DNA from: Nitrososphaerota archaeon
Lineage (GTDB): Archaea; Thermoproteota; Nitrososphaeria; Nitrososphaerales; Nitrosopumilaceae
NCBI GenBank assembly: GCA_028867675.1
Contig: JAGWGA010000018.1
Span: 1-34,640, forward strand
Reading direction: 5' to 3'
DNA length: 34,640 bases
The notes beneath the pieces are model-generated. The model was given only the letters and a program-made list of their open reading frames with translations, did not search any database and was not told where the DNA came from. Numbering within the stretch: the stretch's first letter is position 1; the number at the start of each line of letters is the position of its first letter. The position numbers and the translations under genes were made by a program. Positions 4,971-14,003 of the stretch are shown here, piece after piece.

Positions 4971-5480
4971 TTACTTTCTCTCAAATTCTACTACTAGATC
5001 TATCTTTCGAAGATCGTTAGATATTGCAATTATTTTATCTACATCTATTGGAAATCGAGTGGTCTTTTTCCCAGATACTATAACTTTGGTTTTCCTAAGA
5101 CCTCCCAGTGCCCATACTTGATTTATTGCAAGTATTTTAATTGGAAAAAATACATCTTCTATGAATTTTTTGTCATCAGAGTTTTGATGCACAAGCCAAA
5201 TTTTTCCAGTGAATTCCCCTTGAAGTATTCTGTAAAGTTCCCTGCTTTGTCTAATCGTCATGATATCTTGACTGTTAAGATATAGTACAAAGTCACCATG
5301 AGATTCTCGACAGGAATTTAACGTGAATTTTTCTATTAATGGGATTTTTTGAGAAAGTTTGACAAGTTTTATCGATGCTTCAACGTCGGCCTTTGTAAGA
5401 ACACCTTGAGATAGTTTTGTTTCACATTGAGGGCACAATATGCCATTCATTGCATCAAAATTACAAATTGGAGTTCTCAA
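4971..5480 (-). CDS. Zn-ribbon/KH-like RNA-binding protein (NusA-like, archaeal)
   Basis: The 169-residue protein starts MRTPICNF and carries C6, C16 and C19 (with CPQC at 16-19), a small zinc-ribbon-like N-terminus. The rest, including GDFVLYLNSQD and a segment FPIKILAINQVWALGGLRK, resembles the archaeal Zn-ribbon plus KH-type proteins annotated as NusA-like transcription elongation or RNA-binding factors. It is upstream of aspS with a 9-nt gap, so a role in transcription or translation is plausible. The start is TTG at 5480. The frame stays open upstream with no better start codon, and PICxxDA...ILCPxC is the expected beginning of the family. The family is moderately sure and the function is inferred. 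Confidence 0.65.
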   Translation of the reverse strand: MRTPICNFDAMNGILCPQCETKLSQGVLTKADVEASIKLVKLSQKIPLIEKFTLNSCRESHGDFVLYLNSQDIMTIRQSRELYRILQGEFTGKIWLVHQNSDDKKFIEDVFFPIKILAINQVWALGGLRKTKVIVSGKKTTRFPIDVDKIIAISNDLRKIDLVVEFERK

Positions 5481-6356: not shown

Positions 6357-7289
6357 GTGTTTCTATCCATAACTGACTTGGATGTCAAGTACAAAAGTCA
6401 AGAAAAAAATGTTCAAGCTGTAGATCATGTATCATTTTATTTACAAGAAAATGAATCAATTGGGATAGCAGGCGAGAGTGGTTGTGGTAAGAGTACATTA
6501 GGTTTGGCAATTATGAAAACACTTCAAGATAATGCAAGTGTAACTGGTAAAATAATATTTGAAGATAAATCAATACTATATATATCAGATTCAGATTTTA
6601 CAAAGAATTTCAGATGGAAGCAGATATCCATGGTCTTCCAAGGAGCAATGAATTCTTTAGATCCGGTATTTACCATCAAGAAACAATTTGAAGAAATTCT
6701 AAAAAAACATGAATTCAAAGGAGATTATCAACAGGTCATAGAATCTTCAATATCTGCTGTAGGGTTACCTCATTCCGCTTTAGACAAGTATCCTCATGAG
6801 CTTAGTGGGGGAATGAAACAAAGAGTAGTTATTGCATTAGCACTTATTTTAAAGCCCAAAATGGTGATTGCTGACGAACCTACTACAGCATTAGATGTTT
6901 TAGTTCAAGCACAGATTATGGTTTTGTTAAAGAATCTTAAAAAAAGTGGACTTTCAATAATGTTAATCTCGCATGACCTTGGGATTATTTCAGAAATTGC
7001 TGAAAAAATAGGAATCATGTATGCAGGTCAGATTGTAGAATTTGGAAATTTGTCAGACATTTACAAGGATCCCAAACATCCCTATACTATTGCCCTGTTG
7101 AATGCAATCCCAAAACTAAACAATTCAGAGAGAATCATTCCATTAAAAGGCAGTCCTCCAAGTCTGATAAACCCACCTAGTGGTTGTAGATTTTATGACA
7201 GATGTCCGAAGGCCATGGAGAAATGCAAACAAACCCCACCACAAGTCAAAACAGAGTCAGGATTTGTAATGTGTTGGCTACACGAATGA
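6357..7289 (+). CDS. dppD: Oligopeptide/dipeptide ABC transporter ATPase (DppD-like)
   Basis: The 310-residue nucleotide-binding subunit of an Opp/Dpp-type importer has Walker A GESGCGKST at 39-47, the ABC signature LSGGMKQR at about 149-156 and Walker B MVIADEPT followed by TALDV. The C-terminal oligopeptide-transporter extension has four cysteines in GCRFYDRCPKAMEKC and a final VMCW, a pattern that may bind an iron-sulfur cluster. It hydrolyses ATP to drive peptide or nickel uptake through membrane permeases. These permeases and the binding protein are absent from the window. The start is GTG at 6357, the first start giving the conserved LSITDLDVKY opening. Its natural partner dppF lies 1.1 kb downstream, beyond an opposite-strand gene. 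Confidence 0.88.
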   Translation: MFLSITDLDVKYKSQEKNVQAVDHVSFYLQENESIGIAGESGCGKSTLGLAIMKTLQDNASVTGKIIFEDKSILYISDSDFTKNFRWKQISMVFQGAMNSLDPVFTIKKQFEEILKKHEFKGDYQQVIESSISAVGLPHSALDKYPHELSGGMKQRVVIALALILKPKMVIADEPTTALDVLVQAQIMVLLKNLKKSGLSIMLISHDLGIISEIAEKIGIMYAGQIVEFGNLSDIYKDPKHPYTIALLNAIPKLNNSERIIPLKGSPPSLINPPSGCRFYDRCPKAMEKCKQTPPQVKTESGFVMCWLHE

Positions 7290-7315: not shown

Positions 7316-8278
7316 TTATCTGGTACTTGCTGGATAGTATGAGTTGAAGACATTCAATGCGTTATTCATGGATGATTGTTGAGCTTGTGCAATCAATGTG
7401 TTTCTATCTCTGCCTTGTGTATCAGTTGAAGTACTAGTTAGACCATACCATTTTGATTTCAATGATGCAAGGTTTGATTGGTGGATTTCGTTGAATATCA
7501 TTACTGCCTTTTCTAGCGAATATGCTTCTTGTGGAGTCAAATTGCGACCACCATGAGTCATTTCATTTGTAATTGAACCAGGTTTGTATGTGTATGGAAT
7601 GTTTGTATTTACGTAAGGAGTAAGATCAAGAAATACTTGGTATCTCTTTGCAAGTTCGCTAACCAAGTCTGCTGCTTGAGATTCTGAAGCAGCGGCATTC
7701 TGATTAATCATAGTTTGTCTATCGTATGTAGCAGCAGAATCAGTAGTTGGACCTGCTTGGAAGTCAGCATAGGTTTGTTGAACCTTTACTAGTTGACTCA
7801 TAATATCATCAGCACTTGCAAGAGATGATGCACGTACACTGTCAATCATTGCATTTCTATCTCTGCCTTGAGTATCTGTTGTAGTACTGTTAAGTCCCTT
7901 GTAATCACTTGCTCTGAGTTGCTCCAGTTGTGTTGAATGAATAGTATCAAAATAGGCAACTGCATTTTGTAGTGAAACTTGCTGTTGTGCATCAATTGTT
8001 CTACCTCTGCTTGTTTCATCAGTTGTAGAACCTGGTTTGTATACATATGGAGATTCAGTGGTATTGGTAAGTCCAGACCAATTTCTCATGGACTGATCCA
8101 TGTTAGCAAACTGGTACATGCTCATGTATTTGGTCATAGCCTTTTGTTCTGCTGCTTGTTGTCTTGCAGCAATATCAGACCATGGATCATCTGCAAATAC
8201 AGCATGGTTCAAGAATACAGAACCTGCACTGAACAAAAGTCCGGCAATCATAAGAACGGCTAATAATTTTGAGTTCAC
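7316..8278 (-). CDS. Secreted protein with internal 76-residue duplication
   Basis: The 320-residue protein of unknown function has a clear N-terminal signal peptide (hydrophobic LLAVLMIAGLLFSAGSVFL, with likely cleavage after AVFA at about residue 29). The mature part is hydrophilic and helix-rich. A block at residues 77-152 (PYVYKPGS...ASS) is repeated at 228-303 (PYTYKPGS...QSS), each containing TDTQGRDRN. A third, degenerate DRxxxI helix starts near 186. An extracellular, helical, perhaps filamentous or cell-surface role is inferred. No PEFG-type sorting tail is present. The GTG start at 8278 has a TATA box TTTTAAAA 26 nt upstream, indicating a leaderless transcript. The gene separates dppD from dppF. 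Confidence 0.8.
   Translation of the reverse strand: MNSKLLAVLMIAGLLFSAGSVFLNHAVFADDPWSDIAARQQAAEQKAMTKYMSMYQFANMDQSMRNWSGLTNTTESPYVYKPGSTTDETSRGRTIDAQQQVSLQNAVAYFDTIHSTQLEQLRASDYKGLNSTTTDTQGRDRNAMIDSVRASSLASADDIMSQLVKVQQTYADFQAGPTTDSAATYDRQTMINQNAAASESQAADLVSELAKRYQVFLDLTPYVNTNIPYTYKPGSITNEMTHGGRNLTPQEAYSLEKAVMIFNEIHQSNLASLKSKWYGLTSTSTDTQGRDRNTLIAQAQQSSMNNALNVFNSYYPASTR
7370..7597 (-). repeat. Internal repeat copy 2 in secreted protein
   Basis: This encodes residues 228-303 of the secreted protein. It shares PYxYKPGS, SLxxAVxxFxxIH and TDTQGRDRN with copy 1. One-residue gaps offset each other, so both copies are 76 residues long. Confidence 0.85.
7823..8050 (-). repeat. Internal repeat copy 1 in secreted protein
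   Basis: This encodes residues 77-152 of the secreted protein. The DNA of the two copies is conserved mostly around the GGxxTDTQGRDRN-coding segment, showing an old duplication and not a recent one. Confidence 0.85.
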
Positions 8279-8300: not shown

Positions 8301-8308
8301 TTTTAAAA
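8301..8308 (-). promoter_or_regulatory. TATA box of the secreted repeat protein
   Basis: TTTTAAAA is centred 26 nt upstream of the GTG start at 8278. That is the archaeal TATA distance for transcription starting at the start codon (leaderless). Confidence 0.6.
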
Positions 8309-8344
8309 CTTTGCGATGAACGGATTTGCAGCCACTGATCGCTT

Positions 8345-8353
8345 GATATATTT
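8345..8353 (+). promoter_or_regulatory. TATA box of dppF
   Basis: GATATATTT is centred about 25 nt upstream of the ATG at 8373. It favours ATG 8373 over the GTG at 8370. It is back to back with the promoter of the secreted protein in a 90-bp divergent region. Confidence 0.6.
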
Positions 8354-8372
8354 GCGATCGTACTAAAAAGTG

Positions 8373-9332
8373 ATGCCAGAGATCCTGTCTGTCAAGAATT
8401 TAAAAAAATATTTTACCAAAAAAGGTTCTTCAGGTAAAGAGACCATAAGAGTAGCTGACGGGGTGTCATTTTCAATCAATAGCGGAGAGACACTTGTTTT
8501 GGCGGGAGAATCAGGTTCAGGTAAGACTACGATTGCTCGGCTGATATTACGAGCAATAGAACCCGATTCAGGAACAATAAACTTTGACGGTGAAGAAATA
8601 ACAAATCAACATGAACATCTAAAAAAAATTAGAATTGGTTGTCAGATGGTTCACCAAGACCCTTACGCATCAATAAATCCAAGAATGACAATTTTAGACA
8701 TTGTAAGAGAGCCACTTGAAATTAATTCAATTAGAAACAAAACAGAAAGAAACAATCTTGCCTTACAAGCACTAAGTCAGGTAAAGTTGGAACCAGTAGA
8801 AGAGATTGCAACAAAATATCCACACATGTTATCAGGAGGACAAAGACAAAGAGTTGCAATTGCACGAGCTATTGTAACAAGACCAAAGATCATCATAGCT
8901 GATGAACCTGTTTCAATGCTTGATGTATCAGTAAGAATTGGAGTATTAGAATTGATGAAAGAGTTACAAGAGAAACTTGGAATTTCATTTTTATACATAA
9001 CACATGATTTAGCTACTGCAAATTATATCGGTCACAGAATCGCAATTTTATATCTTGGAAAGATAGTAGAGACAGGGCCAATAAATGAAATTTTATCAAG
9101 TCCAAGTCATCCATACACCCAAGCACTCATAGATTCCATCTCAGACCCAGACCCAGACAATCTACAAAGAGACAGAAAGATTCGCATCAATGATCCTCTA
9201 GACATCAACGTGTATCAAGGCTGTAGATTTAGAGCAAGATGTCCTTATGCCATAGAGAAATGCAAGCAAGAACCTGAACTTGAAGAAATCTCAGATAAAA
9301 GACAAGTTGCGTGTTTTGTTAAGATTAACTAG
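8373..9332 (+). CDS. dppF: Oligopeptide/dipeptide ABC transporter ATPase (DppF-like)
   Basis: The second Opp/Dpp ATPase, 319 residues from the ATG (a GTG directly upstream at 8370 would add one), has Walker A GESGSGKTT, signature LSGGQRQR, Walker B IIIADEP with SMLDVS, and the same four-cysteine C-terminal extension (GCRFRARCPYAIEKC...VACF) as dppD. DppD and DppF normally form the heterodimeric motor of one peptide importer. Here they have separate promoters because the secreted-protein gene lies between them on the other strand. The ATG was chosen because a TATA box lies 25 nt upstream. The last 8 nt overlap the convergent smc gene. Confidence 0.88.
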   Translation: MPEILSVKNLKKYFTKKGSSGKETIRVADGVSFSINSGETLVLAGESGSGKTTIARLILRAIEPDSGTINFDGEEITNQHEHLKKIRIGCQMVHQDPYASINPRMTILDIVREPLEINSIRNKTERNNLALQALSQVKLEPVEEIATKYPHMLSGGQRQRVAIARAIVTRPKIIIADEPVSMLDVSVRIGVLELMKELQEKLGISFLYITHDLATANYIGHRIAILYLGKIVETGPINEILSSPSHPYTQALIDSISDPDPDNLQRDRKIRINDPLDINVYQGCRFRARCPYAIEKCKQEPELEEISDKRQVACFVKIN

Positions 9333-12935: not shown

Positions 12936-14003
12936 TTAGCTGTCTCGCTTGCCTTCAACAAATTCAGCAAAGGCGTTCTTTGCTTCAGTGTAAGGCATCT
13001 GAATGGGAGGATGTTTGAAACAGTACGATGAGATACTAGTCATTGGACCGTATAGTTTTCTATCAAGTGCGATCTTTAGTCCCCTTATTGCATCAATCAT
13101 AATTCCTGCACTATTGTAGGCATCAATTACTTTTAATTTGAGATCTAACTTTACAGGAATCTTTCCAAAGTATTTTCCTTCCAAGTTAATGTAACATATT
13201 TTTTCATTATCTATAAAATCAACATAATCACTAGGACCAATTCTCATTGGAATGTCATAGTCAGCCATTGCCTTTACTGCACTAGTCTTGCTTATTCTCT
13301 TATCTTCAAGCCTCTCTTCATCAAGCATGTTGAAGAAATCCATGTCACCACCAATGTTTAATTGATAGGTTCCATCGATTTGTACACCTCTGTCTACGAA
13401 GAGTTTGACAAGTGTCTTGTGAACAACTGTTGCTCCAAGCTGGCTCATCACATCATCACCTGCAAGCGGTATCTTTTTCTCCGCATAGGCCTGTTGCCAT
13501 TTTGGCTCAGATGCAATAAACACTGGAATTGCATTAAGAAATCCTATACCGGCCTCTAGTGCCTGACTTGCATAATGTCTAACTGCGTTGGTACTTCCTA
13601 CAGGGAGATAATTTACTAGCATCTCTGCGCCGGTGTCTTCAAGAACCTTTTTGACGTTAACATCTGGTTCTGAGGAATTTGTAACTATTCGGCTCAAGTG
13701 TCTTCCTAAACCATCAAAGGTTGGGCCCTTTTGTACAGTCACGCCCATGTGAGGAACTTCTGCTACTGTTATAGTGTTATTGGGTTTTGCATAGATTGCC
13801 TCAGATACGTCTTTTCCGACTTTGGTATCTGCAACATCAAATGCAGCCACAACTTCGATATCTCCTGGTTCATACCCACCCAAATTATAGGCAGTAAGGC
13901 CAATAGTATCTTGAGGATTCTCTGAATAGTATTTTGCGCCTTGAATAATTGCCGATGCACAGTTACCCATACCGGCTATGGCAATCTTGATTTTCTTACC
14001 CAA
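12936..14003 (-). CDS. ino1: Myo-inositol-1-phosphate synthase
   Basis: The 355-residue enzyme converts glucose 6-phosphate to inositol 1-phosphate with bound NAD. The N-terminal nucleotide motif GMGNCASAIIQG is the compact archaeal/actinobacterial form, and the family segments GDDVMSQLGATVVHKTL, NIGGDMDFFNM and SDYVDFIDN are present. It lacks the long insertions of eukaryotic INO1. In archaea the product feeds inositol phospholipids and compatible solutes. In actinobacteria it also feeds mycothiol. The start is TTG at 14003, with a TATA-like TTAATATG about 29 nt upstream. The gene is divergent from deoxyhypusine synthase and 83 nt upstream of smc. I see nothing abnormal in the sequence. Confidence 0.93.
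   Translation of the reverse strand: MGKKIKIAIAGMGNCASAIIQGAKYYSENPQDTIGLTAYNLGGYEPGDIEVVAAFDVADTKVGKDVSEAIYAKPNNTITVAEVPHMGVTVQKGPTFDGLGRHLSRIVTNSSEPDVNVKKVLEDTGAEMLVNYLPVGSTNAVRHYASQALEAGIGFLNAIPVFIASEPKWQQAYAEKKIPLAGDDVMSQLGATVVHKTLVKLFVDRGVQIDGTYQLNIGGDMDFFNMLDEERLEDKRISKTSAVKAMADYDIPMRIGPSDYVDFIDNEKICYINLEGKYFGKIPVKLDLKLKVIDAYNSAGIMIDAIRGLKIALDRKLYGPMTSISSYCFKHPPIQMPYTEAKNAFAEFVEGKRDS

Follow-up and report, generated by a model that had tools for sequence, protein, structure and literature searches.

A lineage-specific exported archaeal protein consisting of six tandem helix-plus-loop units

Introduction

The window analysed here, a stretch of 34,640 nucleotides forming contig JAGWGA010000018.1 of a Nitrososphaerota archaeon that probably belongs to the genus Nitrosotalea, contains a reading frame located on the opposite strand between two genes encoding oligopeptide ABC transporter ATPases. 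An initial annotation described its product as a secreted protein, built on a duplicated 76-residue unit, to which no known domain could be assigned. The locus raises the question of what the true building block of this protein is, and which role such a protein may have outside the membrane. The features considered in the current work are collected in Table 1.

Table 1. Features of the repeat gene, its product and its surroundings (window coordinates)
Feature	Coordinates	Strand	Basis or remark
ORF, secreted six-unit repeat protein	7316..8278	-	320 aa, GTG start, stop codon 7316-7318; open frames in homologues
N-terminal export signal, residues 1-29	8192..8278	-	invariant columns and hydropathy
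Unit U1, residues 30-90	8009..8191	-	unit profile comparison
11-residue loop insertion in U1, TESPYVYKPGS	8027..8059	-	alignment; resembles U4 loop
Unit U2, residues 91-138	7865..8008	-	unit profile comparison and single-unit profile search
Unit U3, residues 139-184	7727..7864	-	unit profile comparison and single-unit profile search
Unit U4, residues 185-242, with loop insertion PYTYKPGS	7553..7726	-	alignment and unit profiles
Unit U5, residues 243-289	7412..7552	-	unit profile comparison and single-unit profile search
Unit U6, C-terminal, helix only, residues 290-320	7319..7411	-	unit profile comparison and single-unit profile search
Promoter core TCGCAAAG-TTTTAAAA, BRE/TATA-like	8301..8316	-	22 nt before GTG; conservation over loci
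Upstream element GCGATCA	8336..8342	-	CGATCA in 21/21 loci, leading G in 19/21
Inverted repeat TGATCGC-N11-GCGATC	8336..8359		spans TATA-like box of divergent DppF gene
DppD-like oligopeptide ABC ATPase	6357..7289	+	ABC_tran, oligo_HPY
DppF-like oligopeptide ABC ATPase, divergent from repeat gene	8370..9332	+	ABC_tran, oligo_HPY

Results

Reading frame, export signal and composition

The reading frame matches its earlier description in extent, strand and start codon, and all 21 homologous loci have a GTG in the corresponding position. An in-frame ATG located a few codons upstream in 4/21 loci, very close behind the TATA-like box, was taken as a false start. The signal peptide, previously called clear, was recovered by inspection and hydropathy: residues 1-29 comprise a basic start, a hydrophobic core (mean Kyte-Doolittle value of 2.36 over residues 5-22) and a small-x-small site within the sequence VFA-DD, as is characteristic of a Sec-exported protein. 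A29 and D30 are invariant in the 21 aligned proteins, and cleavage would occur between these two residues (VFA-DD).

The mature protein (32.4 kDa, pI 5.1) is acidic, free of cysteine and hydrophilic (GRAVY -0.71), with S, T, N, Q and A accounting for 47% of its residues. None of the six homologues measured has, in its mature part, a 19-residue stretch above a Kyte-Doolittle value of 1.05, and a membrane anchor is therefore not predicted. N-glycosylation sequons exceeded shuffled sequences at p<0.05 in just one of the 21 homologues, most of which show no enrichment.

A repeat of about 46 residues

The alignment underlying the proposed duplication was reproduced: residues 77-152 and 228-303, which contain the anchors PYxYKPGS and TDTQGRDRN, align with a BLOSUM62 local score of 178 and constitute the best single internal alignment of the window protein, and the two halves of the protein align with a score of 187, the maximum in 1000 shuffles being 65. 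What did not hold is the 76-residue block as the basic unit, which was rejected on the grounds of a 46-residue period and of the unit profiles. At an offset of 46, residues 80-219 pair with residues 126-265 with an ungapped score of 88, as compared to a mean of 27 and a maximum of 57 in 500 shuffles of the mature protein. Scanning of offsets 30-70 gave a best short offset of 45-48 in 21/21 aligned homologues. A longer period of 137-139 is seen in part of the genus, or of 149-151 where the U4 loop has an insertion of 10-12 residues; in the second genus (loci L019 and L020), the 46-residue period scores 110 and 90, far above the 48 and 51 of the ~140 period.

With unit borders placed at the loop arginine that is conserved, profile-profile comparison identified U2-U5 (99.3% probability) and U3-U4 (98.6%) as the strongest pairs, followed by U1-U2, U1-U5, U3-U5 and U3-U6 (95% or more), with U1-U3 and U1-U4 as the weakest (about 10%). 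An alignment in which overlapping three-unit fragments were aligned in register, and not one unit apart, was set aside. A profile of a single ~46-residue unit, searching being the check suggested for the earlier proposal, gave six matches in the window's genome, and all five among the matches listed fall in the repeat gene, which bears out the repeat. These comparisons show that the mature protein is composed of six related units, each about 46 residues long and made up of a single predicted helix that leads into a loop with the pattern Y.GL.S.TTDE..GRDRN, so that several homologous units stand in tandem as in other tandem repeat proteins. The full-length homologues have the same architecture, and across the 21 aligned proteins 24 columns are invariant, a large share being aromatic residues, arginine or glycine.

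The previous suggestion of an older multi-repeat helical protein is thus borne out by six units related by profile comparison, and the "third degenerate helix" noted near residue 186 is the place where unit 4 begins. An exact two-copy duplication of a 76-residue domain is now very improbable: it would account for the best internal alignment, but not for a 46-residue period found in all 21 homologues and dominating in the second genus, for profiles linking U3 to U4 and U1 to U2, or for the same unit motif in a 166-aa paralogue of genome G097. The match at an offset of 151 instead reflects a register of three units (3 x 46), lengthened by a loop insertion, and the 76-residue block covers about 1.5 of the real units, sliced through a six-unit protein.

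Loop insertions in U1 and U4

The insertion in the U4 loop is common to part of the genus and missing from some of the aligned homologues, and that in U1 is missing from the other 20; the window protein is the only one of the 21 with a PYxYKPGS-type loop in both units, which in part explains the long match reported earlier. When the DNA sequences of the two halves are compared, good alignment is limited to 51 bases around TDTQGRDRN (score of 63, codon-shuffle maximum of 38), and the two PYxYKPGS-type loops are no longer close. Since the other 20 homologues are without the U1 insertion, the U4-U5 loop was likely copied into U1-U2 within the gene in the lineage of the window, an event not recent enough to be proven from the DNA.

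Predicted structure

AlphaFold models of three full-length sequences (mean pLDDT of 34.9) and of a three-unit block with six rows (mean pLDDT of 46.7) are both of low confidence, because of which tertiary packing is not readable from them; in both, one long helix is predicted per unit and the protein is essentially all-helical. Column variability within the predicted helices, the ends of which were drawn from these low-confidence models, follows a helical period, with peaks at 94-102 degrees in U1, U3, U4 and U6, and for the combined units none of 1000 permutations was as strong; tested alone, U5 (p 0.49) and U6 (p 0.58) are not significant. A helical period was found neither in hydrophobicity in any unit (smallest p 0.33) nor in the proportion of residues that are large and apolar (combined p 0.50), and a compact bundle is consequently not demonstrated. 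Our reading of these patterns is that the helices are real and have one face under constraint, within a protein that is very polar.

Distribution, selection and database matches

The family profile matched 33/400 genomes of the class, these being 28 of the 32 genomes of the window's genus, four of a second genus and a weak match in G296, which was rejected as a member since it represents a different lysine/glutamate-rich secreted protein. The single-unit profile matched 30/185 genomes at the level of the family Nitrosopumilaceae, restricted to the same two genera. Named relatives are "Thaumarchaeota archaeon REEA57" and "Candidatus Nitrosotalea sp. sed-bin190". The gene was not found in G064, where its absence is probably a gap because the contig begins inside DppF, nor in G298, G312 and G367, whose completeness is 70-79%. 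A secreted 166-aa paralogue with the unit of the repeat protein (L066:4825-5325) was also observed, full length only in genome G097. The rejected lysine/glutamate-rich protein (L067:1912-2385), of another genus, has 157 aa and what by eye seems to be a ~45-residue helical repeat of its own.

Values of dN/dS of 0.05-0.20 in nine pairs, with synonymous sites near saturation in several of them, point to clear purifying selection on the repeat gene. Its codon usage leans weakly toward that of the amo genes (rank 10/59), relative to a tiny reference set made up of the amo genes and one putative ribosomal gene that itself scores badly when left out.

In agreement with the earlier statement that no known domain fits, the best Pfam match of the window protein (PF05009, 16.7 bits) lies below its cut-off of 24.4, NCBIfam gave no match for this protein and scattered weak matches in other members, and none of the PDB sequence families fits. 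Profile searches retrieved neither an S-layer or carbohydrate-binding domain nor any other functional domain, no viral homologue was present among 36 candidate stretches, and PHROGs matches were weak and scattered. No description of the protein was encountered in the literature searched, which included passages of PMC5767755 and PMC4836417.

Promoter and divergent upstream region

The earlier claim that the gene has its own promoter is well founded, as the core CGCAARGTTTTAAA is invariant in 21/21 loci, even at 29% protein identity; its position suggests that the transcript has no leader or a very short one. In the genome, the exact 15-mer at 8302-8316 is found a single time, and allowing up to two mismatches it has 9 places, which is not above the 11 of the reversed control, so that neither a regulon nor a genome-wide box is indicated.

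The upstream region of the repeat gene has a mean identity of 0.73 and 24 invariant columns over 17 loci. Corresponding values are 0.62 for AsnRS, 0.59 for the gene at 4971, 0.46 for DppD, 0.44 for DppF, 0.66 each for the genes at 12936 and 14075, and a close 0.72 for SMC; the upstream regions of LeuA (0.75) and IsoDH (0.71) abut coding sequence. The conservation of the repeat-gene promoter is the highest among the upstream regions that we treat as intergenic (others 0.44-0.72), which is notable because the protein itself is less conserved than its neighbours DppD, DppF and SMC, and which speaks of conservation, not of promoter strength. An abundant surface protein, as suggested earlier, is a conjecture for which this promoter conservation and the weak lean in codon usage serve as proxies. 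The inverted repeat listed in Table 1 is perfect, none of 100 shuffled windows has one, and it is a possible operator between the divergent repeat gene and DppF.

Gene order

The order DppD - repeat gene (other strand) - DppF - SMC is present in 17/17 repeat-gene loci, 19 having been taken in and the paralogue and rejected-match loci (L066 and L067) left out. The first three genes have the same order in G000, G118 and G106, giving 20 genomes in two genera; one locus, L024, has an extra 1.5 kb between the repeat gene and DppF. Of 30 DppF loci, 18 come from other genera; in none of these do the 1.5 kb around DppF contain DppD or the repeat gene, and in nine of 11 such loci inspected the place is taken by an ORF of ~300-350 aa, which we take to be an EgtD-like methyltransferase. 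DppF itself is present in 97/100 genomes of the class. For DppF of G116 (L060:8722-9722), the match falls into two pieces whose frames differ, which may reflect a broken or mis-assembled gene. Both Dpp ATPases of the window are separated from their likely permeases and from an SBP_bac_5 ORF of 818 aa, which are located on another contig of the same genome (G000:C111:19666-24458).

Discussion

The sequence comparisons describe a lineage-specific protein with six tandem ~46-residue helix-plus-loop units, an export signal and a conserved archaeal promoter. The reading to which we incline, at somewhat less than even confidence, is that of a soluble component of the cell-envelope space with a structural or binding role. 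The protein would pass through the Sec pathway and be released in soluble form, as an acidic molecule lacking cysteine, either between the membrane and the S-layer or beyond the S-layer; its helices may lie against one another, forming a single bundle or a pair of three-helix blocks whose ends carry the conserved TTDE..GRDRN loops, and it could be a structural spacer, or a scaffold for binding, in the envelope of what are probably acid-soil archaea. Every functional step after export is one that we infer. The family may have grown by duplication of the unit, with the three-unit register (U1-U3 resembling U4-U6) arising later.

Known systems provide partial likenesses. Spectrin-type repeats likewise have tandem long helices of ~25-34 residues and a three-unit register near 138-151, whereas the present unit has one helix with a conserved TTDE..GRDRN loop; no spectrin-type family is listed for any of the 21 members at E up to 1, no PDB match was obtained, and where a three-helix bundle per ~106 residues would be expected AlphaFold gives helices with low fold confidence. 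TPR proteins share tandem helical units, and weak, non-significant PDB matches of the single-unit profile include TPR proteins (E 0.81 and 0.83); the TPR unit, however, has 34 residues and two helices, against ~46 residues and one helix here. Thaumarchaeal S-layer proteins such as NDEV_0159 and NDEV_0294 of Ca. N. devanaterra (PMC4836417) are also exported envelope proteins, probably of the same genus, from which the repeat protein differs in having only ~290 mature residues, an all-helical prediction and no matching domain.

Two other roles were weighed against that of an envelope component. A secreted accessory of Dpp/Opp peptide uptake, which would capture peptides or present them to the transporter, is suggested by the fixed position of the gene between DppD and DppF in 17/17 loci plus three genomes of two genera, and by the promoter region lying head to head with DppF across an inverted repeat. 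We consider it unlikely: the flanking genes are collinear too, so that the linkage may be passive and is not taken as proof of joint function, DppF is nearly universal in the class whereas only two genera have the repeat gene, the DppF upstream region is poorly conserved, and in L024 the two genes are separated by 1.5 kb. Furthermore, the permeases and a real SBP_bac_5 protein are encoded on another contig; the repeat protein does not match SBP_bac_5 (PF00496), for which the genome has its own protein at G000:C111, and its essentially all-helical prediction differs from the two-lobe alpha/beta fold of that family.

A hydrophilic protectant or extracytoplasmic chaperone-like protein, acting under acid, drying or metal stress and flexible or partly folded off its target, would suit the polar, acidic, cysteine-free composition, the low AlphaFold confidence, the missing apolar helical period and the fact that close relatives belong to obligate acidophiles (PMC5767755). 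It too is improbable in our judgement, considering that the 24 invariant columns and the helical period in variability argue for a defined fold, and that no LEA-type family in Pfam was matched. The broader proposal of a new helical repeat family with a Y.GL.S.TTDE..GRDRN cap, serving as envelope scaffold or protectant in one (probably acid-soil) branch of ammonia-oxidizing archaea under a near-invariant promoter, is put forward as speculative.

The mechanism of Nitrosotalea-type ammonia oxidation in acid soil is debated and the envelope of these archaea is poorly known. As an exported protein at the level of the genus, under strong selection, at a fixed locus and behind a near-invariant promoter, the envelope component proposed here would offer a small and expressible candidate for its study, and its repeat unit would be new for protein-family databases.
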